Part shown: piece by piece, positions 8,095 to 60,900 of the stretch
Position numbering within the stretch: the first letter of the stretch is position 1
Layout of the letters: every line of letters begins with the position of its first letter
Source of the DNA: Cantharellus purpuraceus
Lineage: Eukaryota; Basidiomycota; Agaricomycetes; Cantharellales; Hydnaceae
Reading direction: 5' to 3'
Assembly: GCA_025174535.1 (NCBI GenBank)
Contig: JALBUN010000015.1
Coordinates: 1 to 64,000, forward strand
Length of the DNA: 64,000 bases
The notes under the pieces: generated by a model
Seen by the model: the letters and a program-made list of their open reading frames with translations, nothing else
Databases searched by the model: none
Told to the model about the DNA's origin: nothing
Position numbers and translations under genes: made by a program

Positions 8095-8620
8095 TGTTAT
8101 GACTATATTCATTAACGCCCAGATCCCCGTCCGATCCACTCAGATCCCCGCGCATATGAAATCTATACTCCATTTGGAAACTGCTACGTCTCCATTTACC
8201 TGTCCAATTGTCACCGCCGATTCCGCCCATCCGTCTCCGGTTCCAATTGATGCATCAGCATCACCATAGGAACCCGGACATCCATCCCCGTCGGACTCAG
8301 ACATACTCACATAAGGCCGTCGGCCTCAGAGACCCATCACCAGAGTAATTATTATTAGATTTCAAATATGTATTTATGTTGCCTGACTGGGGACTTCATT
8401 CCCAGTTCAAATATTGAATCACACCTAGCTCCTAAGTCCGATCCTAACTCTCTAAGTCGCACTCCGTCTCCAAAATCTTTGACACCGGTATTAGTGAGGG
8501 CGCAGCACATAAGCTGAAGCCAAGTCCATTCCAACCCCATGACATGTTCCGACTCCAACCCAACCTCCGACCCAACCTCCAATCCAATCTCTGACCCCAA
8601 ATTGGACCTAGTGCATAACA
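8095..8620 (+). repeat. Gypsy-1 5' LTR
   Basis: TGTTATGAC...GTGCATAACA, 526 bp. The orientation is set by Gypsy-3, where a purine tract (aaatggggagatac, read on the minus strand) directly precedes the LTR that starts TGTTATGAC. The left flank is the LTR-B fragment and no target-site duplication survives. The leader (8,621-8,652) begins GTAT, as does the base pair adjoining the Gypsy-3 LTR. I could not assign a primer-binding site. Confidence 0.85.
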
Positions 8621-8652
8621 GTATATTCGAACTGCCACACTCACTCCTACCA

Positions 8653-10269
8653 ATGCCATGATCCACCGCCAATTCCAAACATGCATGAATTGTCGAGGTA
8701 CCCGCCCCCAGCATCGACACCATCCCCGAGGTCATCGAGGAACTGACGGACCACATAGAGGCTGTCAATGAAGAAGATGACACCCTGCCCTCTCCAAATC
8801 TGGTGCAAGCCATCTCCCTGCTTGCTAGCAGCATCCGTAACCCACAAGCCCCTAAGTCCTGGACCAAGGTCCGAGAACCCGACCCATTCGATGGCTCCGA
8901 TCTGCACAAACTCCAGCCGTTCTTGGTGCAATGCCAGTTGAATTTCCGCGACCGCCCTGACACATTCACATCCGATCGGGCGAAGGTCACCTTCGCCATG
9001 TCCTATCTCAAGGGCACCGCACTGGACTACTTTGAACCAGCGCTCATGGACGACTCCGATGACCCGATATGGTCAGAGGACTACTCCAACTTCATCTCCG
9101 AACTTTGGACCAATTTTGGTCCTTATAACCCCGAGGCCGATGCCGAGAACGAACTCGATTGACTTCAGATGAAGGCGAATCACAAAATCACAAAATACAT
9201 TGTAAGTTTCCAGCAGCTAGCTCCAAAAGTCCAATGGGGCGACGCCACACTCCGATGCCAATTTTACGTTGGACTCCCATCCTGCATCAAGGACGAGATA
9301 TCACGTGTCGGTAAGCCGGATACTTTGGCTACCCTCTGCAAGCTCGCCCAATCCATCGACGCCCATTATTGGGAACGTCAATCCGAGGTCTCCTGCAAAA
9401 ATTCGGCCAACAACAAATCGGACAAGTCATTGGACAAGACCCCAAAGTCCAACAAGGGGTCCGATAAGCGGGCCACTGCCAACTCAGGCCAGAAGTCAAA
9501 CACTGGTAACACTGCCGCTTCCAGTTCCAGCACCAGCAATAACTCTGGAGCTCGCAAGAGTACTCTGGACCTCTCCACCAAGCTGGGGAAGGATGGGAAA
9601 CTTACCCAGCAGGAACGCCAGCGCCGCATGGACAACAACCTCTGTCTGTTCTGCAGAAAGCCTGGTCACCAAGCCAAGGATTGCAACAAAGCAACCTCGT
9701 CCGCAGCAAAGGCAAAGGGCCGCAGCGCCAACGCCACAACGGACAAGTCCGATGCTAAAGCGACGCACCAAAAAAAAATAGTAAGCAGTCCTATAGCCTC
9801 CGTACGGGCTGAGGGCTGCATTGGTACTCCCCGTACTCCAGACGAGGTCTGCCTGAACGCATCCGCTCTTTTCCACTCCGACTCCCTTACCCTCCTTGTC
9901 CACTCCGACTCCATTCCTGATACCACTATTCAAGCATTAATTGACTCCGGTTCTACTCACTGTTTCCTCGATTCCTCTTTTTCTGATTTACATAAACTCC
10001 ACACATACACCATAACTCTGATACCACTCCGATTATTTGATGGCACTACTAATGCTGTTATTTCATGAGCTATAGATCTGTCTATCCGTTTTTCTGTCGG
10101 AGAAATCCAGACCCTTACATTCTATGTTACTCCGCTTGACTCCAGCTGTTCTGTGGTTCTCAGACATAACTGGCTCACCCGCTACAACCCATTGATTGAC
10201 TGGGCATTGGGCCATATCACATTCCATTCTCCAGCACAGGCTGTGTCATCCCCGACGTCACCAGCAACT
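8653..10269 (+). pseudogene. gag-pro: Gypsy-1 gag and protease
   Basis: Gag forms the capsid and the aspartic protease cleaves the polyprotein. All pieces are in one frame. A plausible start is ATG 8,653, with TGA codons at 8,659 and 8,686; clear gag homology with Gypsy-2 runs from about 8,740. The capsid segment continues to the TGA at 9,160-9,162 and resumes at once. A CCHC zinc knuckle (CLFCRKPGHQAKDC) lies near 9,640-9,690, after a Lys/Ser/Asn-rich linker. The protease motif IDSGSTHCF is near 9,940. A TGA at 10,066-10,068 interrupts the protease. Gypsy-2 has CAA at both the 9,160 and 10,066 positions, which fits an ancestral CGA that decayed to TGA in one copy and CAA in the other. Confidence 0.85.
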
Positions 10270-13557: not shown

Positions 13558-15243
13558 TTATACATCACGTTTCCTTTTTCCCTTCCCCTTATCTACCTCA
13601 GGCTCCGTCTCCGACTCCTCATCACTCTCTACATCCAACACCCAATCCTTATCATCTCCCATGTCCGAATCCTCGTCCAACAGGGCCATGAATTTCCGCA
13701 ACCGACGTAACTCGGCTGTCCGACGACCCTCCAGAACCTCCTTCCGTTTCATGGTCCTCACCAAGTCTACTAACAACCCCTCCATCTGCCAAAGGTGCTC
13801 CGACTGCAGGTTAACCAGCCGGATAAGCTGGCCCACAGTGCTATTGGGCGCCGAAACGTGCCCTGTACCTGCACTGGTCGTCACCCCTTCCGATCCGACG
13901 CCGCTACCCCCGGCTGCCACAGCACCCATCTCTGTCCACCTCTTTTTGGTCAGACGACCCTCTGATTCCTTCTCTGCCCCTCCTTGTACCACTAGTCAGG
14001 GCTTGACGCTCCGACTCCAGGGATCGAACTTCCCATCGATCCTACACCCTTCTTTCTGACCCCGACAACAATCGCAGGACTGAAGTTGGCAAGTTGGGCC
14101 GGTAGGCCACACGCACTCCACACCCGCATCACAACATAAGTCGCAAGTTACGCTGGGTCCACCAAATGGCTCCGCTGGAGCCAGAGCCTTGGGTGGCCCA
14201 CCCCTTCTCACTGCGGCCTCCAAGCTGCCTCCTCTCCTCCTCCTTGTCCTGCTGTTCTGCCGCCACCTTCTCCATCTCGTGCTTGTGAAGCTGGATCGCC
14301 GACCTCGTGACACGCAGTTCCTTCTTACGGGTTGCCAACACGCGACTCTCCGCCTTGCACCATATGACCCTCCGGTCCACCTCTCGCTTCTCCGTATCAG
14401 CACTCAGGTAGGCCTTCAATGAAAAGACCGCGACATCAAGATTCTTCTTGGTGGTCGCAGCATAGAGCTCCACTCTTTTGCAAGCCTCGACCGCAGCTAC
14501 CCAAGCCATCTCCTCGTAGGAATTCGAAGTGGGATCCGGCTCTGCGTCCGTCCCAACATCCACGCCCACCTTGGGCTCCGCATTCGCACCGAGATCCACA
14601 TTGGCATTGGGATCCGCTTCCACCTCCACCCTCTCCGCCTCTGCCGCATCATCTTCCTCAGCTGCCCCCAACTCAAATAGGGGCTGTGCCCGCGGATGTA
14701 ACGGCGAGTCCTCCACAGTGACAGTCCTCGAACGAGTCGTCTCCATCCATGTAACGGAGATGATGGCCACTTCCAGAGTCCCTGGTCGTATTGGCACACT
14801 CTGACTTCCTGGGTGGCTGGTTCCCCTGCCCCAGTCACCTCCTCCTCTACCTCCATGGCAGCCTCTAACTTGTGCGCCTGCTCCTCCACTTCTTTCAGTC
14901 TCGCAGCCTCCATCACTGCCACAAGTTCCTTCACCATGTGGGCCCTCTCAACTTTTGCTTCCTCCTCTTTCCTTCTCCGTTCTGTTTTCGCCGCCTCTTT
15001 CTGCCGCTGCTCCTCCTCCTCCTTCTGTCTCTGCTCCGCCTCCTCCTCCTCCTTCCGCCTCCATTCCACCTCCTCCTCCTCCTTCTGTCTCCGGTTCCTC
15101 CTCCTCCTTCTGTCTCTGTTCCGCCTCCCTCCTCCTCCTCCTTCCATCTCCGCTCTGCCTCCTCCTCCTCCTTCCATCTCTGTTCCACCTCCACCTCCTC
15201 CACTCCTTCCGTCTCTGCTCCACCTCCTCCTCCTCCTTCCGCC
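13558..15243 (-). pseudogene. Antisense accessory gene of Gypsy-1 (ER/K helix + Zn2Cys6-like cluster)
   Basis: Runs convergent to gag-pol and ends 134 bp from the integrase stop. Reading from the N-terminus (15,243 down): about 100 residues of E/K/R-rich repeats predicted as a charged single helix, an Ala/Glu-rich acidic stretch, a coiled-coil (KKNLDVAVFSLKAYLSADTE, about 14,450), a cysteine cluster at about 14,146-14,043 spaced C-x2-C-x6-C-x12-C-x2-C-x6-C, a TKKRWTE basic patch, a second coiled coil (STVGQLIRLVNLQSEHL), an acidic tail and KGKGKRKRDV at the end. The spacing matches the fungal Zn(II)2Cys6 class, although the usual basic residues in the first half are absent. Frameshifts (about 14,800 and 14,225) and TGA 13,996 break this copy; Gypsy-3 has CGA at the last site. 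The N-terminus is cut off at 15,244. A DNA-binding role is inference. Confidence 0.8.
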
Positions 15244-18939: not shown

Positions 18940-20695
18940 GCCATTTTGGGCAAAATCACACACAATGGTTAATCTGACAGGACTACATATGGCCAAAAAT
19001 GTGAGAGTACATTCAACACTACTGTACCATGTGTATGCACTCAAAATCGCAAAGACACAAACCCTATGACGCTTGTTCAGAATCATGTCAGTATACAATA
19101 TTCTGATGTATATCTCATATACATCAGAATTTCAATGATACATAAAGCCAGGGAGTTACAATTTGGATATCTTAAAAGATTTCAGATGTGTGAAATTTTC
19201 ATAAATATAAACATATATTCTATATTTTAATAAACTTTAAAAGATGAGATATTTGGTTGAGATGAACATAATCATTTACATGGATATAATAGGAATGTAT
19301 GTATTAATATAATTGGTATTATATAGGGTATTTAGATATACAAATACCAGGTGGGAATTAAAGATAGTTCAAATTATATTACAAGTATTGTATAAGAAAG
19401 AATCAATGATATTTGGATGTTTCCTCAAGAGAGTTGCCACCACTAAATGGGGAAAAAAGAATTATTTTTGAGAATTATGCCAAAATATCAAAATATGTTT
19501 TAATCTAGTATATTGTGTAAAATTTGAGAATCATGTTGAAATATGAAAATAAGTTTGAATTGAAGTGTATTGTGTAAAATTTGAGGAAAATAGGTTGTAT
19601 ATACATATTTATTGTATTTCTGAACAAGCGTCTATGGAATGCTTAAGCAACTTCCTGTCCCAGAGCAACCATGGAACTCGATCTCCATGGATTTCATAGA
19701 GAAACACCCCCCATCGCTTGGATATGACACCATACTTGTGATTGTTGACAGGTTCACTAAACAGTCACTATTCATTCTGATGCATGACACCATCACCTCC
19801 GCCTCACTAGCCAAGTTGTTCATTCTCCACATATTCTAAACATGGAGTCCCCTTGCATGTCACATCCGATCAGGGCTCAGAGTTTGTGTCCTCCTTCTTT
19901 CACACATTAGGAAAGGCTCTCAACATGAAGCTTCATTTCACCTCCGGATACCATCCTGAAGGAGACAGACAAACAGAACGAATGAATCAGTCCCTGGAAC
20001 AATATCTCTAAGTCTATTGTAACTATCAACAAGACAACTGGGCTGACCTACTTTTGATTGCAGAGTTTGCCTACAACAACACTCCAAATGCGACTACTGG
20101 CGTCTCTCCATTCTTTGCTAATAAAGGCTACCATCCGAACATCTCTGTCCACCCCGAGAAGGAACTCGCCTCCATCAAAGCCTGCCAATTCATAACCAAC
20201 CTCAACCAACTACACCAACATCTCTGAGAAACCATCTCCGATGCCCAGAAACAATACCAAGTCTCTGTGGACCGATGCCACATCCTGGCTCCAGACCTGC
20301 AAATCAGAGACAAAGTATTCATCAAGGCCAAACATTTCCAGACCACCTGTCCATCGAAAAAACTCTCCAAGAAATACTTAGGTCCTTATGAGGCCATTGC
20401 TCACACAGGCAGCAGGTCCTTCACCCTCTGCCTCTGACCACTTCCAAGCAGTTCACCTGGTCTTCCATATATCAATGCTTGAACCTGCTACTACAAACGA
20501 GATCTCCAGTTGCACCCAACCTCCACCTCCTCTGATCATCATCAAAGGAGATAACAAATATGAGATATCTGAGATCCTGGACTTGAAGATTGATTGTCAG
20601 TACAAGTGCAAGCTCCAGTAACTAGTCAAATGGACTGGATATGAAGGCACCAATGAAGAGTCCTCATGGATCTCCATGTCCAAACTCAATCATGT
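18940..20695 (+). pseudogene. int: Gypsy-2a: integrase and chromodomain fragment split by a MITE
   Basis: Homologous to Gypsy-1 from the H2C2 region (12,175) to within the chromodomain. The core is recognisable as IVDRFTKQSLFI (about 19,740), then as frameshifted pieces, with the chromodomain at 20,550-20,690. CGA is kept at 19,979, the position matching TGA 12,653 in Gypsy-1. Many differences from Gypsy-1 are C-to-T or G-to-A at CpG. It is cut at 20,696 by an LTR. The MITE at 19,068-19,632 splits the sequence exactly between 'aaccctat' and 'ggaatgcttaagc'. Confidence 0.85.
19068..19632 (+). mobile_element. 565-bp MITE, copy C, with in-window empty site
   Basis: Perfect terminal repeats GACGCTTGTTCAGAA / TTCTGAACAAGCGTC and target duplication TAT (19,065-19,067 and 19,633-19,635). 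The undisturbed integrase sequence at about 12,302 ('aaccctatggaacgctt') is the empty site and has a single TAT. This defines element length, ends and duplication. A perfect 14-bp inverted repeat with a 3-bp loop lies at 19,100-19,130. Confidence 0.93.
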
Positions 20696-21456: not shown

Positions 21457-22978
21457 TCTGCCTCCTCTGATCATCATCGAAGGCAATAACAAATATGAGA
21501 TATCTGAGATCCTGGACTTGTAGATTGATTGTTGGTACAAGTGCAAGCTCCAGTACCTAGTCAAATGGACTGGCTACGAAGGCACCAATGAAGAGTCCTC
21601 ATGGATCTCCACATCCGAACTTGATCATACATCCAAATCCATTTCCAATTTTCACTCCACTTATCCAGACAAACCTGGCCCTCTTATGAATCTTTAAGTT
21701 CCATTATTGATGCTAATTCTATTATTTCACATCATCATTTCATTACAAAGTCACAAAGGAAATTACAAGTCTACCCAACCTCCAAAAGAATCTCACTCCA
21801 CCCCATTTTTTCTCCACTCCAAAATATTACAATCATTTTCATTTTCATTTTTTTTTAGTTATACATTGCACTTCCTTTTTCCCTTCCCCTTGTCTACCTC
21901 AGGCTCTGTCTCTGACTCATCATCACTCTCCACATCCGACACCCAATCTTTCTCATCCCCCATGTCTGAATCCTTGTCCAAGGGGGCCATGAACTTCCAC
22001 AGCCAATGCAACTCAGCAGTCTGCCGACCCTCCAGAACCTCCTTCCGTTTCATCATCTTCACTAACTCCACTAACAACTGTTATTTGGAAGACTGGACTT
22101 ATAGGGGAGAGGGGAACAGAGGGGGAACAGAGGGGAACAGAGGGGGAACAGAGGGGAACAGAGGGGGAACAGAGGGGATAGGAGGAATAGGAGCGCACAG
22201 GAGGCTCAGGAGGTTGAGGGGGAGGTAGGAAAGCGAGGGGAAATGGTTAGGAGGGAAGAGGAGGAGCCCCTGTAAGCTCCACACACATCAGATCATTCTC
22301 CTATATTTCTTTTATATTTTATTTCGTCATTTTTTTCCCTATTGGCTCCACCCCCCATTTCGTTTTTATCACAAGTTTCTTTCCCATGTTTCACATGACA
22401 CAGAACTTTTATCACGAGTTATTAGCATGCATATCTTGTATAAAACATGCCTAGCTAGATATGCAATGGACTAGAGAATTTCCTCTCACCTGTTTCTGTT
22501 GTCTGTGTCTGAACTATTTGTTTCTGGAATAACTCCAGAACGAACGCGTATTTCTACTATCTTTGCATACTTCTCCAGAGTATTGCAACATCTATTTGAA
22601 TCCCAGTTTACGAAGCCTAAAATCCACTAGTTGATTTTCTATTAAGCATTTACTCTCGTTCGAATCATCTGCTCCTGATCTTCACTCAAATTGTCAATAT
22701 CTAGACGAAGATCACACCAAATCCCATCCAACTTCGTAGGAAGATACTACTCAAGTATATCTTCAATTCGATTATGCATACACTCAGTTCCCATCACTCC
22801 CTCTGTCTCTATTTGAAATCTACTCTCCACACACCCCCAGCAAGGCGAAATTTTTTCAACAACAACCCCTCCATCCGCTGGAGGTGCTCCAACTGAAGGT
22901 TAACCAGCCAGATAAGCTGGCCCACAGTACTGTTGGGCACGGAGACATGCCCCATACCTGCACCGGTCATTGCCCCGA
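21457..22978 (+). pseudogene. Gypsy-2b: chromodomain end plus antisense-gene fragment
   Basis: 21,457-21,700 encodes the end of the chromodomain on the plus strand (VKWTGYEGTNEESSWIS) up to TAA. A short spacer follows, then the minus-strand antisense gene: 22,077-21,859 gives the C-terminal part (MKRKEVLEGRQTAEL ... EPEVDKGKGKRKCNV), continued beyond the inserted LTR at 22,978-22,862 (STVGQLIWLVNLQLEHLQ). The arrangement is the same as in Gypsy-1. At about 22,978 the antisense gene is joined directly to gag, so the 3' LTR, 5' LTR and leader that should lie between are missing. Confidence 0.82.
22079..22861 (+). mobile_element. Copia-1-type solo LTR with TSD ACAAC
   Basis: TGTTATTTGGAAGAC...TTTTTTCAACA, 783 bp, flanked by ACAAC at 22,074-22,078 and 22,862-22,866. 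The empty site is Gypsy-1 at about 13,771 ('ctaacaacccctcc'). Compared with the Copia-1 LTRs it has an expanded G-rich tandem repeat (about 22,104-22,177), which accounts for most of the extra length. Confidence 0.92.
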
Positions 22979-32307: not shown

Positions 32308-32855
32308 TGTTACACACTAGGTCCGATTGGGGGTCAGAGATTGGGTCAGAGTTCGGGTTGGAGGTTGGGTTGGAGGTTGGGTTGGAGGTTGGGTCAGAGT
32401 CAGAGCATGTCATGGGGGTCGGGACGGACTTGGCTTCAGCTTATGTGCTGCGCCCTCACTAATACTGGCTGAGATTTCAGAGACGGAGTACGACTTAGAG
32501 AGTTAGGGTTGGACTTAGGAACTAGGTGTGATTTGATATTTGAACTGGGGAATGAAGCCCCCAGTCAGGCAACTTAAATACATATTTTGAAATCTAATAA
32601 TAATTACTCTGGTGATGGGTCTCTGAGGCCAACGGCCTTACATGAGTATGTCTGAGTCCCATGGGGATGGATGTCTGGGTTCCTATGGTGATGCTGATGC
32701 ATCAATTGGAACCGGAGACGGATGGGTGGAATCAGCGGTGACAAATGGACAGGTAGATGGAGATGGCGGTTTCCAAATGGAGTATAGATTTCATATGCGT
32801 GGGGATCTGAGTGGATTGGACGGGGATCTGGACGTTAATGAATATAGTCATAACA
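32308..32855 (-). repeat. Gypsy-3 3' LTR
   Basis: Plus-strand reading TGTTACACACTAGG...TAGTCATAACA, 548 bp. On the coding strand it is directly preceded by a purine-rich tract (aaatggggagatac, 32,856-32,869), the expected polypurine primer. Carries the 'ggttgggttgga' minisatellite near 32,345-32,400. Confidence 0.85.
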
Positions 32856-32956: not shown

Positions 32957-32964
32957 ATATAAAA
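32957..32964 (+). promoter_or_regulatory. TATA-like box of the antisense accessory gene
   Basis: ATATAAAA about 100 bp inside the 3' LTR of Gypsy-3 and just upstream of in-frame ATGs at 32,973, 32,994, 32,997 and 33,018. A start site about 30 bp downstream would favour translation from 32,994-33,018. The antisense gene would then have its own promoter in the internal region. Inference only. Confidence 0.45.
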
Positions 32965-32972
32965 GGAGGGGC

Positions 32973-34705
32973 ATGATTGAGGTCTTATCCTCAATGATGT
33001 CAAACCCTTTGGCAAGCATGAGCGTGGCCAAGCTTGAGCAGCTGCTCTTGGCCCAATGGAAGGAAGAGGAGGAGGAGTGGAAACGGAAAGAGGAAGAGGA
33101 AGCAGAACGGAGATGGAAGGAGGAGGAGGAGGCAGAACGGAGACGCAAGGAGGAGGAGGAGGTGGAACGGAGATGGAAGGAGGAGGAGGAGGCAGAACGG
33201 AGATGGAAGGAGGAGGAGGAGGCAGAACAGAGACGCAAGGAGGAGGAGCAGAGGTGGAAAGAGGCGGTGGAGACGGAACGGAGACGGAAGGAGGAGGAGG
33301 CAAAAGCTAAGAGAGCTCGCAGGGTAAAGGAACTTGCGGCAGTGATGGAGGCTGCGAGACTGAAGGAAGTGGAGGAGCAGGCGCATGAGCTAGAGGCCAC
33401 CATGGAGGTAGAGGAGGTGACTGGGGCAGGGGGAACCAGCCACCCAGAAAGTCCAAGTGTGCCAATATGGACAGGGACCCCGGAAGTCGCCATTATTTCC
33501 ATTACGCGGTCGGAGACAACTCACCCAACAACTGTCACTGCGGTTGACTTGCCATTACGTCCGCAGGTACAGCCATTGTTTGGGTTGGGTGCAGCTGAGG
33601 AAGATGAAGCGGCGGAGGCGGAGAGAGCGGAGGTGGAGGCGGACCCTGATGCCAATATGGAGCTTGACGCAAATGCGGAACCCGAGGCGGGTGTGGATGT
33701 TGGAATGGATGCGGAGCCGGATCTGACTTCGAATTGTTTCAAGGAAATGGGTTGGGTAGCCACAGTTGAGGCTCGCAAGAGGGCAGAGTTCTATGCTGTG
33801 ACCACCAAGAAAAACCTTGACGTCGCGGTCTTTTCATTGAAGGCATACCTGAGTGCGGATACAGAGAAGCAGGAGGCAGACCGGAGGGTCATATGGTGTA
33901 AGGCAGAGAGTCGCGTTTTGGCGACCCGTAAGAAGGAGCTGCGTGTCACGAGGTCAGCGATCCAGCTTTGCAAGCACGAGATAGAGAAGGCGGCAGCGGA
34001 ACAACAGGACAAGGAGGAGGAGAGGGAACATTTGGAGGCCGCAGCGAGAAGGGGCGGATCACCCAAGGCTCTGGCTCCAGCGGAGCCATTTGGCGGACCC
34101 GGCGTAACTTGTGACTTGTGTCGTGATGTGGGCATGGAGTGCGTGTGGCCTACTGGCCCAACTCGCTGACTTTGGTCCTGTGATCGTTGTTGGGGTCGGA
34201 AAGGGGTGTAGGATCGATGGGAAGTTCAATCCCTGGAGTCAGAGTGTCAAGCCCCGACTAGTGGTACAAGGAGGGGTAGAGAAAGAATCAGAAGGTTGTC
34301 CAACCAAAAAGCGGCGGACGGAGACAGGTGCTGTGGCAGCCGGGGTAGCGCGCCAGATCGGAAGGGGTGATGACCGGTGCAGGTACGGGGCGCATCTCTG
34401 TGTCCAATAGTACTGTGGGCCAGCTTATCCGGCTGGTTAACCTGCAGTCGGAGCACCTTCGGCGGACGGAGGGGTTGCTAGTGGACTTGGTAAAAACGAT
34501 GAAACGAAAAGAGGTTCTGGAGGGTCGGTGGACAGCCGAGTTACATCAGTTGTGGAAGTTCATGGCCCCTTTGGATGAGGATTCGGACATGGGAGATGAT
34601 AAGGATTGGGTGTCAGATGTAGAGAGTGATGAGGAGTCGGAGATGGCATCGGAGACAGAGCCTGAGGTAGATAAGGGAAACAGGAAAAGGAAACACGATG
34701 TATAA
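32973..34705 (+). pseudogene. Antisense accessory gene of Gypsy-3 (best-preserved copy)
   Basis: Nearly intact to 34,169. Opening MMSNPLASMSVAKLEQLLL; ten-residue repeats of the type KEEEEAERRW (33,056-33,297); KRARRVKELAAVMEAARLKE; acidic Ala/Glu/Asp tract (33,590-33,720); coiled coil KKNLDVAVFSLKAYLSADTE; first cysteine triad CDLCRDVGMEC at 34,109-34,141. A TGA at 34,168 (CAA in Gypsy-1) and a 2-bp deletion disturb the second triad, after which GCRIDGKFNPWSQSVKPRL continues. The C-terminal block at 34,367-34,705 matches Gypsy-1 and ends KGNRKRKHDV. Total length would be about 570 residues. Upstream is a TATA-like box; downstream the stop faces the chromodomain stop of the opposite strand, 150 bp away. 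The earlier in-frame ATG at 32,916 precedes the TATA box and is less likely. Confidence 0.8.
33056..33297 (+). repeat. 30-bp tandem repeats coding E/R-rich decapeptides
   Basis: About eight imperfect 30-bp units ('gaggaggaggaggcagaacg' plus 'gagatggaag'), each a ten-residue KEEEEAERRW-like block. The Gypsy-1 antisense gene has an orthologous array with different unit composition. Confidence 0.8.
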
Positions 34706-34852
34706 AAGTAAAAATGAGAATGATTATAAATTTCAGAGCGGAGAAAAATGAGGCGGAGTGATTCCTGTGGAGCTTTTGGGCAGGCATGTAATTTCCTTGA
34801 CTTGTAATAAAATGATGATGCTAAATAATAGAATTAGCATTAGTAATCGAAC

Positions 34853-35976
34853 TTAAAGATTCATAAGGGGTCCAGGTTTGTCTGGATAAGCGGAGTGAAA
34901 GTCGGAGATGGATTTGGATGCATCATCGAGTTCAGACGCGGAGATCCATGAGGATTCTTCATCGGTGCCTTCATATCCAGTCCATTTGACTAAGTACTGG
35001 AGCTTGCACTTGTATTGACGGTCGATCTTCAAGTCCAGGATCTCAGAGATCTCATATTCACTGTCTCCTTTGATGATGATCGGGGGAGGTGGAGGTTGCG
35101 TGCGACTGGAGATCTTGTTCGTGGTAGCAGGTTTGAGCATTGATATATGGAAGACCAGATGAACTGCTCGGAAGTGGTCCGGAAGTCGGAGGGTGAAGGA
35201 CCTGCTGCCCACGCAAGCAATGACCTCATAAGGACCTAAGTATTTCTCGGAGAGTTTCTTCGATGGGCGGGTGGTCCGGAAGTGTTCAGCCTTAACGAAT
35301 ACTTTGTCTCCAATTTGCAGGTCCAGAGCCGGAATGCGGTGTCGGTCTGTGGAGACTTGATATTGTTTCTGGGCATCGGAGATGGTCTCTCGGAGATGTT
35401 GGTGTAGTTGATCGAGGTTGATTACAAATTGGCGGGCTTTGGTGGAGGCAAGTTCTTTCTCAGGGTGGACGGAGATGTTTGGATGGTAGCCTTTATTAGC
35501 AAAGAACAGAGACGCCAGTAGTCGCGTTCGGCGCGTTGTTGTATGCAAACTCTGCTATTGGAAGTAGGTCAGCCCAGTTGTCTTGTTGATAGTTACAATA
35601 GATTTGGAGAGGTTCCAGGGACTGATTCATTCATTCCATTTGTCCATCTCCTTCAGGGTGGTATCTGGAGGTGAAATGAAGCTTCATGTCAAGAGCTTTT
35701 CCTAATGTGCGGAAGAAGGAGGACATGAACTCCGAGCCCCGATTGGACGTGACATGCGATGGGACTCCGTGTTTAGAGAATATATGGAGAATGAACAACT
35801 TAGCTAGTGAGGCGGAGGTGATGGTGTCATGCGTCAGAATAAATAGTGACTGTTTAGTGAACCTGTTGACAATCACGAGTATGGTGTCATATCCGAGTGA
35901 TGGGGGGAGTTTCTATGAAATCCATGGAGATGGAGTTCCATGGTTGTTCCAGGACTGGAAGTTGCTTAAGCGTTCC
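34853..35976 (-). pseudogene. int: Gypsy-3 integrase core and chromodomain
   Basis: Minus-strand reading: VNRFTKQSLF, HVTSNRGSEF (second catalytic Asp replaced by Asn; the AAT is explained by a CpG change from GAT), HPEGDGQ, then TGA at about 35,631 as in Gypsy-1. After a frameshift near 35,535 comes FFANKGYHPNISVHPEKELA through the chromodomain (EYEISEILDLKI ... YLVKWTGYEG ... SSWISASEL) to the stop at 34,853. Overall less mutated than Gypsy-2. Confidence 0.87.
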
Positions 35977-38570: not shown

Positions 38571-39616
38571 CAAGGGTCTGCTAGCAATGTAAGCACACAT
38601 TCAGCCACCAGACCTTCCACAGACACTCACCTCTCCCTCTTCGATTAATCTAGCTGTGAGCTCCATCTGTACGAGATTATGGTGTTCGTCTGCCAGTATC
38701 CATGACGGTAGTGTCACTGCCCACAGATATCTCCATAATTTCTGGTGATACAGGTGCTGTCTTGTCCTGACCATCCAGAAGGACTCGTCCATCCAGATGC
38801 TGCTCATCATGGATTTCGTCATAACTGCTGTACGCACCAATACCCAAGGCATGGCTTTGTAAATGTTCTGGCTCCTTGTCTGTAACCATCCATGCAGTCT
38901 CTAACCTGGCATTCTGAGAGTCGGACCTGATCAGAAACATGTCAGGGCCAACAGGCATATCACTATCGTGCGTGTGATCACGATCTTCCATCAACGAAGA
39001 ACCAGAGGCGACCTCATCCTTTACGACTGTTATCTTGCTCTCTAGTTTGAGTCGCTCCAATTGCACCTCTGATGCAGCAGACCTGTACTGCTGAGACTCC
39101 ACTGCCGTTAAATTTTGCTTAACCATCTTCTGTGCCAATTCTATGGCTGTTTGCAGTCTCCATCGATGATGATGAGAATAAATTCTCTTGTGCCAACTCC
39201 GTCGCCGTCTGCACAACCTTGATCGATGAGGAGGCGTTTTCCTTCATTGGAACGGTCGTCATTTTCACAACCCCTGTAAGTAAATGACAAAGTAATATTT
39301 TGCTGCGAGGACCAGTCATAACTCTCAGTCATGCCTTCTGCCAGGGTGATGACAACATTCTCCATCTCCCTGACAGACCGGGGCTCTGTGTAATTCACCT
39401 GGGTGAAAGTGGTACTAGCCAGATGTTCATTGGATTGACTGGACTGCTGCTCAATTTCTGAATTGCACTGGGTGACCTCTTGTGTTGAGCTTAAGCTTTG
39501 GGTGATAATTTCCTGCGCTGTTCGTTGGTCGTACTTGTGCTGCTGCAAGGAACTTTCGCTGGCCTCTGGCAGCAAGTACATCTCTGCTGAACCCATAGTG
39601 ACCCTTTGTGTGGTTA

Positions 39617-40180
39617 GATGCTTGTTCGGAATCATGTCAGTATACAATATTCTGATGTATAGGAGATATACATCAGGATTTCAATGATACATAAAGCCAG
39701 GGAGTTACAATTTGGATATCTTAAAAGATTTCGGATGTGTGAAATTTTCATAAATATAAACATATATTCTATATTTTAATAAACTTTAAAAGATGAGATA
39801 TTTGGTTGAGATGAACATAATCATTTACATGGATATAATAGGAATGTCTGTATTAATATAATTGGTATTATATAGGGTATTTAGATATACAAATACCAGG
39901 TGGGGATTAAAGATAGTTCAAATTATGTTACAAGTATTGTATAAGAAAGAATCAATGATATTTGGATGTTCCTTCAAGAGAGTTGCCACCACTAAATGGG
40001 GAAAAAACAATTATTTTTGAGAATTATGCCAAAATATCACAATATGTTTTAATCTAGTATATTGTGTAAAATTTGAGAATCATGTTGAAATATGAAAATA
40101 AGTTTGAATTGAAGTGTATTGTATAAAATTTGAGGAAAATAGGTTGTATATACGTATTGTTGTATTTCTGAACAAGCGTC
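39617..40180 (+). mobile_element. 564-bp MITE, copy D, in a host reading frame
   Basis: Terminal repeats GATGCTTGTTCGGAA / TTCTGAACAAGCGTC, target duplication TTA (39,614-39,616 and 40,181-40,183). The minus-strand frame runs ...HEATIGL into TTQRVTMG... with the element and one duplication ignored, so the insertion broke a previously open frame. Confidence 0.92.
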
Positions 40181-41299
40181 TTAGTCCAATGGTAGCTTCA
40201 TGCTGGGACTGTTCAGACGAGGATACTGCAAGTGTCTGCGTCTCTTCACGAACCTCAGTGTGAATCTGCTCAGTAGATGCGGACACATGAAGGAGCATAG
40301 GGTTGTCATTCACCTGCATCTGGGTTGCCGCCTTGGACTCAGCCGTGGCTTCTCTAATCGTCTGTGGCTGAGGAAGGGTAGCTGCGAGGGAGAGGGTAAT
40401 ACTTAGTGAAGGCACGTCTCTTGTGCAAGTCTGTTGGAGAATACTTACGATCCTGTTCTGTGTATTGCAAGATGGAGGCAGTACTGCTGGCCTCAATGTC
40501 CATGGGGCGGCCTCTGGCATTGGTCGTCTGAATCTCACCCTCGGTGACGACATTGGTATTGACCCGTTCCAGGGAGGATGTAATGCGTCAACGATGGTAG
40601 TGGTAGCGGCGGATGTGGTAAGCACGCCAGTGTGCAACTCGCTCGCTCTAGCTTCAATGGGTCCAAATGTCACATCGACACTCTTGCTCTCATCAACAAG
40701 GCTTCCCTCCTCTGGGAATCTCTGTACCATTGAGCTCAATATCCATTAAAGAAACGCAAACTGTCCGCCGAAGAATGTGCACCGTTGTACTGCTCAGTCC
40801 CGACAACTGTCTCTTCAGCTGTCGAAAAATCCACCGTTGCTGCAGTCAAAGCTTCCTGAGTAGCCACATGCACAACCTCAATCGATGATGAAATATTCCC
40901 ATGTGCCGCCATTGACACAATTTCCTTTGGCAACCAAGAGACATCTTCCTGTGACAACGTCGTCTTCGTATGCACAAACCCGATCAATGATGAAATATTA
41001 TCCTCCACCGCTGTCCATGCAGGTTCGGTAGATGATAAAGTAATATTCTCTAGGCCCAATGTTAACACACGACCATGATCGTCGCTCACGAAGTATCCAC
41101 CAAGAGACCTGTGTTGGGTCAACTGTTGTTCCGCTCCTGATTCGTGTTGGGCAATCTCCTGCTGCACTGAGCTTTGTGAGACTTGTGCTAAGCTTTGTGT
41201 GATATCATGCGCTGAGTGACCTCATGCATTGAGCTTTGGTGAAACTGTTCAGAAGAAGTGAGGGCAAGGGCTTCTTCAGAGGTGACAACATGGGGTATT

Positions 41300-50101: not shown

Positions 50102-51127
50102 ATGGCCCAACCACAGAAGCATGATATTCACAAGTTTCGAGACATTAGACCAAAGCTGAGTCGAGACAATTGGGTATCTTGGAAACGAGAGCTACTTGCA
50201 ACCGCACGTGACAGAGGATTGTATGCTACCATCTTGGGCACGGATGTACTCCCTACTGCTCAGAACATTACCACTACTACGGATGATGGTGTACAACTGG
50301 TTCGAGGAATTCCTCTCCCTCAGGCGATCGAGGAATGGCATGACCGAAATAACTCATCATACAACCAAATCCTCCTAACGATCTCATCTGAATACCAAAC
50401 TGCTATCGACACGACAGATTTGGCGGCAGCAGCATGGGCAATCCTCAGGAACGAGTTCAAGTCTAGAGACCCGAGCAAGATTAGTGTCGTTCGGATGAGA
50501 TACGAACATTACCACATGCTCGAAGGACAGTCCATCAATTCTTATCTGATGACGATGAGGGAATACAGAAATCAGCTTTATCAGATGGGAGAAGCTATTC
50601 CGGACTCAACTCATGCTGCCACCATACTGCGTCACGTACCGGAGTCATGGAAATCAATAGCGCTGACCATTCAACTTATGCATACGGATCTTAACGAGAT
50701 CGAACAGAAGCTGAAAGCATACGAGGCCAACATGAATGCCAGGGATCTATCGAGCCAAACTTCCACTGCATTTTCTGCGAAGCTCTCACCTCAGGGCCGA
50801 GTCAATCCCACATTCCCTTCCAATCAGCAATCTATTTTGAACTTTACAGCTTCATGTCCAGCAAATCCAATATCAAACTTTCATTGCACGAACTGTGGTA
50901 GACAAGGCCACACTATTATCAGGTGTTACGCACGAGGAGGCGGTATGGAGGGCAGAGCACCATGGAGCAACCAATCTGAGTCACATGTTACTTCAAACAG
51001 AAACTCACCATCAGCCTCCCCACTCAGAAATCACCCAACTCCCCCTACCATACCGAAGCCTACGAAATCAGCCAAATTTGCAGAAGAGACAAAGCCAAAC
51101 ATCGTTCTTATGGCTTACATATCCTAA
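50102..51127 (+). CDS. gag: Copia-1 gag
   Basis: 341-codon ORF beginning MAQPQKHDIHKFRDIRPKLS. Gag segments: NWVSWKRELLATARDRGLY, AWAILRNEFKSRDPSKISVV, LEGQSINSYLMTMREYRNQL, a long hydrophilic linker, and the zinc knuckle CTNCGRQGHTIIRC (CX2CX4HX4C) at about 50,887. It ends at TAA 51,125 in frame with pol. In Copia-2 gag continues without a stop into the protease, so this TAA is probably a mutation. Gag alone could still be made. Confidence 0.9.
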   Translation: MAQPQKHDIHKFRDIRPKLSRDNWVSWKRELLATARDRGLYATILGTDVLPTAQNITTTTDDGVQLVRGIPLPQAIEEWHDRNNSSYNQILLTISSEYQTAIDTTDLAAAAWAILRNEFKSRDPSKISVVRMRYEHYHMLEGQSINSYLMTMREYRNQLYQMGEAIPDSTHAATILRHVPESWKSIALTIQLMHTDLNEIEQKLKAYEANMNARDLSSQTSTAFSAKLSPQGRVNPTFPSNQQSILNFTASCPANPISNFHCTNCGRQGHTIIRCYARGGGMEGRAPWSNQSESHVTSNRNSPSASPLRNHPTPPTIPKPTKSAKFAEETKPNIVLMAYIS

Positions 51128-54100
51128 ACCGAAGCTGAAGAGGCCAAGGTACATGTATCAACAAACACGACTGCATTCTCATCGATGGAAGAAACTTCTC
51201 ACCTCTGGTTCATGGATTCGGCTCACCTCTGGTTCATGGATTCGGCCGCCTCCAGCCACATATGCGGAAACAAGAACATCTTCGATACGATGTATACGGT
51301 TCCCATCCTCACAATTGAAACTGCAAGTGGAGAATCTTTCACCGCAAATAAACGAGGCACCATCAATATTATGCTCCACTCAGACGGTATGGACGACATA
51401 CCAATCACATTGAAGGACGTCGTATACGTACCAAAGCTCAATGTGAATTTATTATCAGTCGGATGTGTTACAAATGCGAACGTGGACGTATCTTTCACCA
51501 AAGATTATTCATTTTTGTCGATAGATAACACTATCATCGCACAGGGTTCAAAAGTCAACAATCTATTTGCATTTCAAGCCACAATTGAACCCACCAATAT
51601 TCGAGTCAACTACACAAATGACCAAGTTCACTACTCGAATCAGACATCAGACGCGACTCTTTGGCATCACCGACTTGCACATGCAAGTTACTCCACAATC
51701 GATAAAATGATGAAATCCAATACGGTCATTGGACTACCCACAAAGATCAGCTTTGATCAAATCAGTCAATGTATGAACTGTCCATATGGGAAACAAGTGC
51801 GCGCACCATTCAAAAATGTCGAAGAAATTCCCAAGGACATTGGTGATACGATTGTCTCCGATCTCTGTGGCCCCTTCGAATTATCCATTGGAGGATACAG
51901 ATACTTCATAACATGGATCGACCTCAAAACCAGATATGTCAGCATCGAGTTTCTGAAGAACAAAGAATGTAGGACCATCACCGATTCATTCAAATGCTTT
52001 CTGGCATGGATTACAAGGCAGAAAAGCGTATATGTTAAGAAGATAAGGACCGATAATGGTGGCGAGTACACTGGACACGAATTTCAGGAGTTATGCGGTG
52101 AGCTAGGAATAATACACGAGACTACCTCACTGTACACTCCAGAACACAATGGGATATCCGAACGATATAATCGCACCCTTCAAGAAGGGGCACTCACTCT
52201 ACTACATGACTCAGGCCTTTCAAACAGATTCTGGGTGTCAGCTATACATACGGTGAATTTTGTCAAGAACCGTTTACTCCACAGTCGTATCAAAATGTCC
52301 CCACACAAAGCATTTTGGGGACACAGGCCCAAAATAGATTGGTTTAGGACATATGGTGCAAAATGTTGGCCCCTCGTACCAAAACCTATCAGAAAAAAGG
52401 GCGACTTCAGATCTATTGAAGGGATCTTCGTCGGATATTTCGATAATTCAAAGTCTTACAAAATATGGATCCCGTGCACACACACGATCATGAAAGCTCG
52501 CGATGTTATATTCGACGAAGCCAATCACATTGAACGTGTAACTATACACGCGACCGATGATGATGACCTCCCCGATCTGTGGAAAGAGGATATCCCAATC
52601 CACGTCACACCCATCGATGCACCAACGCCCGTGACTCAGTGGACGGAGGACCACGAGCTCCCGTTCGCGTCTGGAGATATTGAGACTGAAGCTGAAACCG
52701 CGGATATGGATGGAGGAGATACAGAGAGAGGAACGGCCGAAGAAGAAGGCGGTGAATCAGAAGAAGAAGAAACATACGCGCCAAAGGACTTTGAGCGAGG
52801 CGCCTGGCTTGACCCGTCCAACGTTACTTACGGACGAGGGAAAAGAATAAAAGCTTTATATTCGGTCATATCAGCTTTCTCGGATGGCGCAGTCAACTTA
52901 GAACTCACCGAACAAGCCTTCGTCACACTCGGTGAAGATGAACCGGCCAGTTATACGGATGCGATGACATCCGTTAACGCCAACGAGTGGAGAAATGCCT
53001 GCCTGACCGAATATGATAACCTGATGAGTTATAACACGTGGACATTAGTTGAGAAACCCACTCACACGAACATAGTCGGGAACAGATGGGTTTTTCGCGT
53101 TAAAAGAGATAATCTAGGTCAATTTGACAAAAGGAAGGCCAGACTCGTCGCTCAGGGCTTCTCTCAGATCCCCGGCATCGACTTCAATGAAACATACTCC
53201 CCCACTATCAGATTCACATCCATACGACTTATCCTCGCACTTGCCGCTCAATATGATCTCGAACTGCGTCAAATCGACATTAAGGGGGCGTACCTGAACG
53301 GCATACTTGAAGAAACAGTCTATATGCAACAGCCCGAAGGATTCATTGTGAAAGGAAAGGAGGGCCTCGTTTGCAAGCTTAAAAAGGGTGTATACGGTCT
53401 CAAACAGTCCGGGCGAGTCTGGTATCAAACGCTTAAGGAGAAGCTCACGAAACTTGGGTTCACACCTGGTAAAGCCGATGAAACCATCTATTTCCAGAGC
53501 AAGGAGTCAGGATCTCTCAAGATAGCCGGTTGGTATGTGGACGATGGACTATTGGCTACGAATACGAAGGAAGCGATGGAAGAACTCGTTAAAGATATCA
53601 GTGGCATTTTTGACATACAAGATCTGGGAGAACCAACGCGGTTATTAGGCATTAAAATCCACAGAAATCGAAGCAATGGGACGATACATATCTCTCAACC
53701 CTTGTTCATTAACACCATCGCCAAACGCTTTGAAATATCGCCTGGAAAGTCAATCAACAGTCCCATGGATCCTGTACTTGACTTACGCACCTCAACGAGT
53801 TCCGACAACACCATTGACGTCCCTTATGCCTCCCTCATTGGCTGCATCAATTACTGCGCAGTCTTCACTCGACCCGACATAGCGTATGCCACGAACAAAT
53901 GTGCCCAGTTCACGTCATGTCCTACAACCGACCATTGGGAAGCCGTGAAGAGGATCGTTCGATATCTACAACATACAGCAAATCATGGCATTCTCTATCA
54001 GAAAAACGGCAAGGGAGTCCAAGGATATGCTCATAACCTTGCAGGCTTCACGGATGCAGACTTTGCAGGTGACGTGAATGATCGCAAGTCAACGACAGGG

Positions 54101-55330
54101 TGGATATTCACGTACAACGGTGCCCCTCTCTCTTGGGCCTCGAAGAAACAAACATGCGTTTCATGATCATCGATGGAATCCGAACTGATTGCAGGATCGT
54201 TCGCTTCAGCAGAGGGGATATGGTTGATAAGATTGGGACAAGATTTTGTTAAGAAAAGATATGGAGGGGTGTTGTGGGTGAGTGTAAAATGATGGTGAGG
54301 GATGGTGGCGAAGTAGATTTTGAATAGGGGAGCAATTACTGCAAGGATGCAGATATATGCGGGGTCGATGGAAAGATATTGTTTAGTAGAGTAATGTTAC
54401 CAAATATCAGAATATTTGGTTAAGAACTAGGACTTCTGCAAAATATTTGAGCAGAAATGGGAATAGCAACACTTCGAAAAAGTGTTTGCTAAATAGAAAT
54501 GGATGTAATGATCCAAATCGTTCGTAATTTGAGATAGAAATAGTTGATGCAATATCCTAATGGGATATGCAAAAGATTTCCAATCGAATAGGTCGTTTAG
54601 GAGTTATTCCAGGAACGACAGAAAGTTGACACAAGCTGTTTGTTTGCAGCTTGGAAGGGATTAAGAGTAGTGAATCTCCTTTTTGATACTCATACACAGT
54701 TGTAGTTAATATACAATTTGACAATCACATGATAAAAAAGCCTTTTAGTAAGATTGAAACATATGATAAAAGAAATGATGTGGATACTGATAATATGTGG
54801 TGTCATGGGGAAAAACTTTTTACAGAGAAAGGAGTTTTTACCCGTTTGACTTGAGGTTTATGACGAATGAAAATCATCATAATACCTCCATTTTTGAGTA
54901 GTAGCCACCCCCGTAGAACGAAAGGATGGCTCACAAAATAAAATCGAAAAACACCTTCTCCTCATCCCTTAATCAAAAAATTCCCAAACTTTTCACAACT
55001 TTTTCTTATCATAAAACTCCCCCTTCTTGCTCCAATAGATTGTAATATTCCTTGAATAAATTCTTGACAGATTTCACGCATGTTTTCGCTCCAATCCCAG
55101 TCTTCACTGACAACCAGTCTTTCCTCATGTTCGCCAACAACGACATCAGTAATAATCGAACCAAACACATCGATACGCACTATCACTATGCACGTGATCA
55201 AGTTTCAAAAGGAAACATCGTATTACATTATATTCCCACACACATCAACCCTGCCGACATCTTGACTAAGCCACTATCTCCACGCAAGCATCAGCAATTA
55301 CTCGCTTTGCTCGGCATCTGCTGTGCTTGA
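51128..55330 (+). pseudogene. pol: Copia-1 pol (protease, integrase, RT, RNase H)
   Basis: Same frame as gag. The protease motif LWFMDSA is present twice because of a 24-bp tandem duplication (51,200-51,247). Integrase: HHRLAHASYSTIDK ... CMNCPYGKQ (zinc finger), DLCGPFELSIGGYRYFITWI, RTDNGGEY (about 52,050) and TPEHNGISERYNR. RT: GFSQIPGIDFNETYSPTI, QIDIKGAYLNGILEETVYM, GWYVDDGLLA (about 53,530, intact YVDD). RNase H: GFTDADFAGDVNDRKSTTGW, then TGA at 54,164, where Copia-2 has Arg (CGA to TGA). The last part resumes after the nested LTR at 55,070 (FTDNQSFLMFANNDIS, KHIDTHYHYARDQV, PADILTKPLSPRKHQ) and ends at TGA 55,328-55,330, followed by GGGGGC. Confidence 0.92.
54247..55069 (+). mobile_element. 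Copia-2-family solo LTR nested in Copia-1
   Basis: TGTTAAGAAAAGATATGG...TTCTTGACA on the plus strand, 823 bp, nearly identical to the Copia-2 LTR at 62,406-63,226; its sense strand is therefore minus. Flanked by GATTT (54,242-54,246 and 55,070-55,074). The RNase H frame resumes directly behind it. Confidence 0.95.
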
Positions 55331-57990: not shown

Positions 57991-60900
57991 TCAAGCACAG
58001 CATATACCAAGAAGCTTGAGTAAATGCTGATGCTTGCGTGGAGATAATGGCTTTGTAAGGATGTCGGCAGGGTTGTTATGTGTAGGAACATAATGAAGGA
58101 CAATGTTTCCATTCGCAATCTGATCATGAGTGTAGTGATAGTGTGTGTCGATGTGTTTTGTGCGAGTATTACTGATATCATTGTTCGCGTATGCGATAAA
58201 AGATTGATTATCAGTGAACACAGGAATTGGGGTGAACGGAAGTGTGAAATCTGCTCCCAATTTGATCAACCATATTCCTTCTGTAGATGCAAATGACCCT
58301 GTGATGAGCTCCGATTCCATTGAAGATCTGGTGACGCAAGTTTGTTTCTTCGAGGCCCATGAAATAGGCGTGCCATTGTAAGTGAACATCCAGCCGGTAG
58401 TGGATTTTCGGTCGTTTACATCGCCAGCGAAGTCCATGTCTGTAAATCCAGCTAGGTTGTGGGCATATCCTTCCATGCCTTTGCCGTCCCTCTTATAGAG
58501 TATGCCAAGATCTGATGTATGCATTAGATACCTGACAATCCTCTTGATGGCCTCCCAATGCTCGGTTGTGGGATGAGAGGTGAACTGAGCGCATCGATTG
58601 GAGGCGTATGCAATATCCGGTTGAGTAGATACTGAGCAGAAGTTGATTGAGCCAATGAGTGACGCATATGGGACATCGATTTCATCATTTGAATCGGTGG
58701 ATTTCCTGAGATCGTGTGATATATCCATCGGGCTATTGATGGATTTTCCGGATGAAATTTTGAAACGTTTCGCAATGTTATGAATGAAGGCAGGTTGGGA
58801 AATATGAATGGATCCATTGGTTCAATCTCTGTAGATTTTAATGCCCAATAGACGTGTCGGCTCACCCAAATCTTGAATTTCAAAAGAATTACTGATCTCC
58901 TCGACAAGTTTGTCCATAGATTCTTTTGTACGTGTTGCCAACAACCCATCATCTACATACCAGCCAGCAATTTCAATATTTCCTGGTCCATCTGATCGGA
59001 AAAAGACTGTTTCATCGGCTAGTCCAGATCTAAATCCGAGCTTCTCCAATTTGGATTTGAGTGTTTGATGCCACACACGTCCAGACTGTTTGAGGCCGTA
59101 GATACCTTTATTGAGCTTGCAAACAGAGTTTTCATTCCCTTTGATGATAAAGCCTTCAGGTTGATGCATATATACGTCTTCCTCGAGTATACCATTTAAG
59201 TACGCCCCTTTAACATCCACTTGGCATAATTCAAGATCATTTTGAGCTGCAAGCGCGAGAATGAATCGAATAGATGTGAATCAGATAGTGGGTGAATATG
59301 TTTCATCATAATCGATGCCAGGGATCTGAGAAAAGCCTTGAGCTACGAGTCTAGCTTTAATGGTGTAAGCTTGTCCCAGATTATCTTTTTTGACACAAAA
59401 GACCCATCTATTTCCGAGGATATTGGTATCACTCGGTTTATTAACGAGTGTCCATGTATTGTACTTTGATAGATTCTTCATTTCATCTTGACAAGCTCTT
59501 CTCCACTCATCTGCATGTGGAGAATTCATAGCGTCTTGATAGTTTGATGGCTCATCATCCGCCAAAGTAACGAAGATTTGCTCAGTTCGTTCAAGAGCCA
59601 TTGTGCCCTCTGATAGGGCAGATAACTCTGTATACAATGCTTTGACTCATTTACCTCGTCCATAAGTGACATTTGATGGATCGAGCCAGGCGCCTCTTTC
59701 AAAGTCCTTGGGTGCATATATGCGGTCTTCCTGCGATTCTTCCGATTCTTCAGCTTCTCTCGTTTCAGCTTCTCTTTCAACTTCTTCAATCTCAATTTCT
59801 CTATCCGGTTCCTCAAATTCGGATGCAAATGGAAGTTCGTGATCATCTGTCCAACGAGTTCCAGGAGATGGTGTGTCGATTGGAGTGATATGAGTGATGA
59901 TATCCTTTTCCCAGAGATTTGGGAGGTCATCATCATCAGTGGCATGGATAGTTACTCATTCAACATGATTTGACTCATCAAAAATCGCATCGCAGCATTT
60001 CATGATTGTTCGCATGCGTGGGATCCATACTTTGTAAGCCTTTGAATTGTCGAAGTAACCAACAAATATTCCCTCAATCGACCTAAAATCTCCTTTCTTC
60101 CGGATCTGTTTGGGTACAAGAACCCAACATTTTATGCCATAAGTCTTGAGCCAATCGATGCGGGGTTTTCTACCCCAAAATGCTTCGTATGGAGACATTT
60201 GAATGCGTGAGTGCAGGAGGCGGTTTTTGACGAAGTTTGTAGTATGCACTGCCGAGACCCAGAATTTAAATGGTAGTGATGAGTCGTGTAGTAAGGTTAA
60301 TGCGCCCTCTTGAAGCATTCGATTATATCGTTCGGCGACCCCATTATGCTCTGGAGTATACGGTGAAGTCGTTTCGTGTATTATACCGAGCTCACCGCAT
60401 AATTGCTCGAATTCATGTCCAATATATTCACTGCCATTATCTGTTCGAATTCGTTTCACCTGTGTATTCTTCTGCCTTGAAATCCATGATAAAAATCTCT
60501 TGAATGAATCTGTAACAGTCTTGCATTCCTTGTTCTTCAGGAACTCGATGCTCGCGTATCTTGTCTTCAAATTGATCCAGGTAATAAAATACCTGTATCC
60601 TCCTATAGATAGCTCAAATGGGCCACAGAGATCCGAAACGACAATCTCTCCAATATCATTTGGGATCTCCTCAATCTTCTGGAATGGAGCGCGAGTTTGT
60701 TTCCCGTATGGACAGCTTTGACATAGGACTGTCTCATCAAAATTTATTTTTGAAGGAAGACCGATGGCTGTATTATTCTTCAACATTTTATCGATCGTGG
60801 AGTAGCTTGTATGCGTGAGTCGATGATGCCAAATGGTGGCATCTGTAGATTCAATGAATGAATGAACTTGATTATCACCAATTTCAGGAGGTTTGTCTAT

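Follow-up and report, generated by a model that had tools for sequence, protein, structure and literature searches.

Gypsy-3, a chromodomain Ty3/Gypsy retrotransposon lying in a 64,000-nt stretch (the window) of the Cantharellus purpuraceus genome (40.15 Mb in 50 contigs), carries a second gene on the strand opposite gag-pol, between pol and the 3' long terminal repeat (LTR). This antisense gene travels with the element through the genome, and its reading frame is under purifying selection. At roughly even odds (about 0.5), the gene, which has the layout of a transcription unit, encodes a nuclear regulator whose target is the LTR or the chromatin of the element itself. The first-pass annotation of the window had seen in it an element-borne DNA-binding factor of the Zn2Cys6 type; the attachment of the gene to the element, the selection on its frame and a conserved TATA box near the LTR are supported, whereas the match to the zinc-cluster profile fails. 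Gypsy-3 itself is oriented on the minus strand, with the antisense gene on the plus strand, and its parts are as follows.

32352-32855, minus strand: 3' LTR by self-comparison, beginning TGTTATG at 32855 (CATAACA on the plus strand at 32849-32855), outer end approximate
32958-32965, plus strand: TATA box of the antisense gene, TATAAAAG, about 100 bp inside from the LTR edge and 39 bp ahead of the conserved ATG at 32997
32997-34166, plus strand: open part of the antisense gene, frame residues 31-420, from the conserved start ATG at 32997 to a TGA stop at 34167-34169
33057-33296, plus strand: charged glutamate/arginine (E/R) decapeptide repeats, coiled-coil-like in sequence, units of about 30 bp, limits approximate
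34110-34209, plus strand: six-cysteine stretch C-x2-C-x6-C-x12-C-x2-C-x6-C, the sixth Cys (34207-34209) out of frame
34207-34344, plus strand: continuation of the antisense gene in a different frame, residues 438-483, including a basic patch resembling a nuclear localization signal (NLS)
34358-34705, plus strand: C-terminal piece in a third frame, residues 489-599, with coiled coil and acidic tail, stop at 34703-34705
34806-34811, plus strand: AATAAA, about 100 bp downstream of the antisense stop, within the 147-bp gap between the convergent genes
34853-35548, minus strand: pol C-terminus with SH3_Tf2-1 (Pfam PF24626) and chromodomain (PF00385), stop at 34853

Past the TGA, the Gypsy-3 gene undergoes two frame changes before its final stop at 34703-34705, and 147 bp separate that stop from the stop of the pol/chromodomain frame. 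The pol C-terminus scores 34.7 bits against PF00385 and 68.8 bits against PF24626, as befits the chromodomain of a chromovirus. The window holds two further copies of the antisense gene.

13558-15243, minus strand: Gypsy-1 antisense gene, broken into three frame pieces that match residues 126-599 of an open copy, truncated at its 5' end (15243)
21859-22976, minus strand: Gypsy-2b antisense remnant, residues 491-599 only, in two pieces interrupted by a repeat of about 0.7-0.8 kb at about 22154-22862

All three copies carry one shared gene opposite gag-pol, as had been claimed, and it sits between the chromodomain and the 3' LTR. However, none is intact: Gypsy-3 is interrupted by one stop and two shifts of frame, Gypsy-1 has lost its 5' end and also changes frame, and Gypsy-2b is a repeat-split remnant; open copies are found elsewhere in the genome. 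The gene had been said to end 130-150 bp from the chromodomain stop, which is true of Gypsy-1 (134 bp from the pol frame stop at 13423) and of Gypsy-3, but of Gypsy-2b only a remnant is left. The E/R decapeptide repeats, basic patches and acidic tail that had been described are all seen in the sequence, and the TATA-like box close to the LTR corresponds to a conserved box beside it; the cysteine spacing was given correctly, except that in Gypsy-3 the sixth Cys lies in another frame.

Copies elsewhere in the genome were collected with two antisense queries. With the 420-codon open piece of Gypsy-3, 100 of 1156 first-look candidates were scored, and these yielded at least 132 matches with identities of 75-100%, a few places accounting for two rows each. 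The 599-codon frame of the copy L034 gave a stop-free match over residues 1-598 or 1-599 at 12 of 73 scored places, including the query's own (73 of 1362 candidates scored). Because lists obtained with an antisense query favour well-kept antisense genes, a second set was chosen by pol, comprising the best 16 of 150 scored pol matches; among these, L042 is the place of L034, while L045, L052 and L057 are the places of L037, L031 and L020. The antisense gene is at least partly present in all 16 pol-chosen loci and, over the approximately 445 codons compared, is open to the native C-terminus in nine, shifts frame near the end in two, has one stop in two and is truncated or broken in three. An absence of the frame from other elements can thus be rejected. 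Across 27 copies, the antisense and pol distances are correlated (Mantel r 0.66, 0/999 permutations as high), and the antisense gene therefore travels with the element. The number and identity of the genomic matches, together with the measurable selection, argue that the frame is not a product of chance.

The element L040, whose LTR is homologous to that of Gypsy-3, has LTRs of 514 bp (the 3' copy reading TGTTATG...CATAACA) and a target-site duplication, AATAC, and so shows the LTR pair and duplication of an inserted element; its two LTRs differ at 21 CpG-type sites and 3 other sites. Another insertion appears to be nested within it, and neither its gag frame nor its pol frame is continuous. 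Two further features of the copies were noted. A premature stop after residue 49 of the open stretch (residue 50 of the frame) falls in the same codon in 8 of 30 copies (L014, L016, L017, L026, L029, L031, L032 and L035), as either a mutational hot spot or an inherited change. In L039, the stretches 1-1934 and 7384-9305, which cover LTR sequence and part of the antisense gene, show 98.8% identity at a distance of about 7.4 kb, as if two tandem elements shared an LTR.

Since CpG changes dominate the decay of the copies and hit replacement and silent sites nearly alike, polymorphic columns were classed as CpG transitions, other transitions or transversions, and the classes were combined by a Mantel-Haenszel ratio with bootstraps over codons. 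Ratios were computed in all six frames, for singletons and for changes shared by at least two copies, from single copies rather than a family consensus. The codon register was that of L034, so that frame changes elsewhere in a copy are not counted; the E/R repeat region was excluded and non-homologous stretches were masked. The joined set comprises 42 rows, L042, L045, L052 and L057 having been removed as duplicate places. For non-CpG shared changes, the stratified ratio of replacement to silent change (dN/dS) is 0.26 [0.19-0.35] in the antisense frame, and the corresponding nonsense ratio is 0.07, i.e., shared nonsense changes are nearly absent. The pol C-terminus, measured apart, gives 0.12 [0.06-0.22], its mirror frame also being low (0.20). 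The control frames over the antisense gene give 1.32, 1.52, 1.60 and 2.31, and the opposite-strand frame with common third positions gives 0.45. A dN/dS near 1 is therefore rejected for non-CpG shared changes, and the antisense frame is under purifying selection. CpG changes, by comparison, give 0.92 in the antisense frame and 0.93 in pol, and non-CpG singletons give 0.88 and 0.64, respectively.

The low ratio does not arise from choosing copies through the antisense protein, as the pol-chosen set alone gives 0.23 [0.14-0.37] for non-CpG shared changes, against 0.25 [0.18-0.33] in the antisense-chosen set. For non-CpG singletons, the two sets give 0.37 and 0.85, respectively, so that the relaxation among singletons is absent in the smaller, pol-chosen set. 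By region, and with three duplicate places still included, the non-CpG shared ratio is lowest for the C-terminal coil (0.14), the cysteine stretch (0.16, from 2 replacement and 6 silent changes) and the helical part (0.19), and higher for the acidic tail (0.29) and for the second and first linkers (0.31 and 0.37, respectively).

The selection result bears directly on the idea that only the antisense RNA matters, convergent transcription yielding double-stranded RNA that restrains gag-pol while the reading frame is incidental. The convergent layout, with 147 bp between the stops, would suit such a role, and an antisense RNA role is discussed in the accessible part of PMC7264820. However, strong protein-level constraint in non-CpG shared changes, the nonsense ratio of 0.07 and protein homology at 30-44% identity argue against RNA as the sole role, and this explanation is scarcely credible.

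The heavy CpG-type decay of the element indicates that host defence or methylation probably exists, and this lends some weight to the view that the antisense protein is a silencing suppressor, or a structural accessory in particles, rather than a factor acting on the LTR. Lineage-restricted, charged accessory proteins of mobile elements often oppose silencing or act in particles. No specific feature of the present protein points that way, however, and its NLS-like patch and cysteine stretch are more in keeping with a nuclear function; we consider this role unlikely.

The signals surrounding the frame are also conserved. Of 30 copies, 29 retain the TATAAAAG box, although these copies were selected by a query beginning upstream of the box, which favours its retention; an ATG stands at the conserved start in all 30. 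The 60-bp block that contains the box has the lowest non-CpG diversity among all blocks tested (0.005). About 100 bp past the antisense stop, AATAAA is found in 22 of the 23 copies with an intact gap, the other seven of the 30 having been dropped because they are cut or diverged there; no AATAAA was found on the gag-pol strand within the gap between the convergent genes. These signals (TATA box, start codon and the AATAAA past the stop) suggest that the transcription unit is complete, and it would be expressed from a promoter near the 3' LTR.

The first protein search found no homolog, probably because the query words fell in the E/R repeats. Further protein searches recovered eight metagenome homologs (P0001-P0008) with 30-44% identity in the alignment. 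The N-terminal motif MLSPFKNMSIADIEKLL of P0007 corresponds to the conserved start MSNPLASMSVAELEQLL. The six cysteines are kept in all seven relatives that reach the stretch, the eighth, P0008, ending before it; in the fungus's own genome they are invariant in 39 of 39 readable copies, and the last Cys in 40 of 40 (42 rows). After the cysteine stretch comes the basic patch TKKRR, which is AKRRR in P0002 and altered in some other relatives. An AlphaFold2 model of P0002, built with ten relatives or window pieces, has a mean predicted local distance difference test (pLDDT) score of 57.8, with helices that are mostly confident at residues 22-129 and moderately so at 265-330. No relative was found in viral contigs (query A3) or prokaryote genomes (query P0001), and solved-structure searches with the whole L034 protein and with the cysteine stretch gave no meaningful match. 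A host-gene ancestor is not separable because element copies fill the best-match lists (100 of 1156 and 73 of 1362 candidates scored). The six-cysteine stretch probably binds zinc, and nuclear entry and self-association may likewise be inferred; the description of the product as a nuclear DNA-binding factor would follow from the six invariant cysteines, the basic NLS-like patch and the helical, coiled-coil-like parts.

The antisense gene is open in a number of other copies and kept by selection, and its product is therefore probably a nuclear protein of benefit to the element. The gene is laid out as a complete transcription unit, running from the TATA box through the start codon and a single open frame of about 570 codons to the stop and AATAAA. 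The protein begins with charged coiled-coil-like repeats and a long helical segment, continues with the six-cysteine stretch and the basic NLS-like patch, and ends in a helical coil followed by an acidic tail. We propose that it is a nuclear regulator, encoded by the element and working at the LTR or chromatin of that element much as retroviral HBZ or plant GENE23 would; the acidic tail would be suited to activation, and antisense output beside the 3' LTR to feedback.

An alternative role, as an accessory of the integration complex or as a chromatin tether, would also suit a protein that self-associates and has NLS-like features; such a protein would enter the nucleus with the complementary DNA and, together with the chromodomain that the element already possesses, steer insertion. 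A nuclear role for such proteins is proposed, and the pre-integration complex mentioned, in the accessible part of PMC7264820. Nevertheless, the separate promoter-like box and the opposite strand suggest production apart from gag-pol, and no link to integrase is visible, which leaves this alternative somewhat unlikely.

Several observations weigh against the reading of the protein as a nuclear regulator at the LTR. Most copies are broken, with only 4 of the 30 loci from the first antisense search (L021, L022, L030 and L034) open from the start to the native C-terminus. Against the reading of purifying selection, the shared-change ratio is only 0.56-0.67 once CpG changes are included, some shared CpG changes are surely parallel hits, and the copy rows are related, some being near twins (L009/L010, L012/L013). 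The putative nuclear location is based solely on the basic patch, and the cysteine stretch is modelled at low confidence in P0002. The CGG-rich end of the LTR, an obvious candidate site, is the most variable LTR block, and its CGG triplets show much the same decay as other CpGs (0.46 over 21 sites vs 0.47 over 6). Finally, the proposed Zn2Cys6 assignment is not supported. The best PF00172 match in any scan, over half the profile, attains 11 bits where the curated cut-off is 21 bits, and when hhalign compares the cysteine stretch with three genuine zinc clusters of the genome, the alignment covers only 14 columns (E-value 4e-5 for this one comparison, probability 70).

That alignment nevertheless leaves a partial resemblance to zinc clusters. 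The cysteine spacing is that of the Zn(II)2Cys6 family, and all six cysteines are conserved; in addition, Gal4 has a coiled coil C-terminal of its zinc cluster, and the antisense protein has one further C-terminal as well. The differences are the failed profile match, the approximately 65 residues between the stretch and the coil, and the loop, where zinc clusters usually have a basic residue and the antisense family has Gly (Lys in the metagenome relatives). The antisense protein is best described as carrying a zinc-cluster-like six-cysteine stretch without being a member of the PF00172 family. Capture of a genuine Zn(II)2Cys6 transcription factor from the host would account for the spacing and for those 14 columns over which the first half resembles three of the genome's zinc clusters. 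It is, however, distinctly unlikely, given that PF00172 stays below its cut-off in every scan where it is present and that a profile of the family's cysteine stretch found no solved structure, whereas a control profile from three real zinc clusters of the genome retrieves the ethanol regulon factor (which we take to be AlcR), LAC9, LEU3 and CYP1/HAP1. The genome's own Zn_clus matches number 19, all above the cut-off, and 14 control genomes have none. A swapped order of the zinc-cluster halves, suggested by a weak Pfam match of the first half to profile positions 20-38, was also rejected, as nine half-domain pieces gave no PF00172 match and the profile comparison aligns first half with first half.

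No credible binding site for the antisense protein was found among the LTR and element motifs examined. The CGG array of the LTR was considered because TCGGAG is over-represented (4 vs 0.4 expected), yet the LTR end is variable and the CGGs are not specially kept. The motif was examined in the whole element L040:292-9254 and in the LTR of L034; CGGAG occurs 60 times on the antisense-gene strand vs 5 on the other, where dinucleotide shuffles expect 13.7 and 4.6, and a second-order Markov model expects 32.7 of the 60. In six gene pieces, CTCCG on the gag-pol strand is found 34 times vs 18.8 in codon shuffles (0/400 as high), and an unrelated element has 1 vs 2.8. The excess may be modest, because the motif was chosen after seeing it, the Markov model accounts for 32.7 occurrences and L040 holds a nested insertion. 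It is very improbable that a nuclear factor encoded by the element, with a zinc-binding six-cysteine domain belonging to no known family, acts in a sequence-specific manner by recognising oriented CTCCG on the gag-pol strand throughout the element, and so tells the element's own nucleic acid from the host's.

Antisense genes at the 3' ends of LTR elements are known from plants, retroviruses and a few fungi, and their roles are mostly unknown. The nearest arrangement is brtn of the Boty-like elements of Botrytis and Sclerotinia, an additional antisense gene between pol and the 3' LTR (PMC7264820, PMC8365987, PMC4227169, accessible parts). As in the present case, the carrier is a fungal chromodomain Gypsy element, the comparison being one of descriptions and not of sequences. 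In plants, the class of antisense genes termed aORF-3R includes Grande GENE23, RIRE2, Retand TRP28 and PvRetro13; GENE23 is nuclear and transcribed from a promoter upstream, and TRP28 is predicted to bind DNA (PMC7264820, PMC11963269, accessible parts). The present gene has the position of this class, i.e., an open reading frame antisense to gag-pol between pol and the 3' LTR, and, like its members, is present in most copies (at least in part in the best-scoring 16 of 150 pol matches) and conserved as other element proteins are, with a constraint weaker than that of the pol C-terminus (0.26 vs 0.12). The plant proteins differ from it as described in those parts of the sources, sequences not being compared, and Retand belongs to a non-chromovirus lineage; the present gene, by contrast, resides in a fungal chromovirus, has the six-cysteine stretch and has had its codon-level selection measured. 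In human T-cell leukaemia virus type 1 (HTLV-1), the antisense gene HBZ is served from the 3' LTR, and its nuclear product has a role in the virus life cycle (PMC7264820, PMC11963269, accessible parts). The likeness lies in the antisense position at the 3' LTR and in a nuclear product, which for the present gene is inferred, with no sequence relation claimed; the HBZ promoter, in contrast, lies inside the LTR. HBZ is a spliced basic leucine zipper protein.

The arrangement as such is thus already known from Boty brtn, plant aORF-3R genes such as that of Grande, and Retand TRP28, as far as the accessible parts of these sources and of PMC5987419, PMC2864245 and PMC3248453, on which the comparison also drew, describe it. 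No report of the present antisense gene was found in the literature searched, mostly non-subscription, and within that literature the antisense protein family and the codon-level constraint on a fungal antisense gene seem to be new. The many copies in one genome (42 rows) allow selection on the antisense gene to be separated from post-insertion decay, and the cysteine stretch, TATA box and poly(A) signal offer handles on the question of whether antisense nuclear regulators, such as that of HTLV, arise repeatedly in retroelements.

Other repeats were noted in the window. A repeat of about 570 bp has four copies (168-750, 3010-3578, 19065-19633 and 39605-40184) that are 95-98% identical, one of them oppositely oriented; they sit inside or beside Gypsy copies and perhaps represent a recent solo LTR family. 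A Copia-type element is present as two inverted copies, about 72% alike, at 50102-54166 and 58247-62367, with gag (PF14223) and RVT_2 (PF07727) domains, the first copy retaining a 993-codon open frame.
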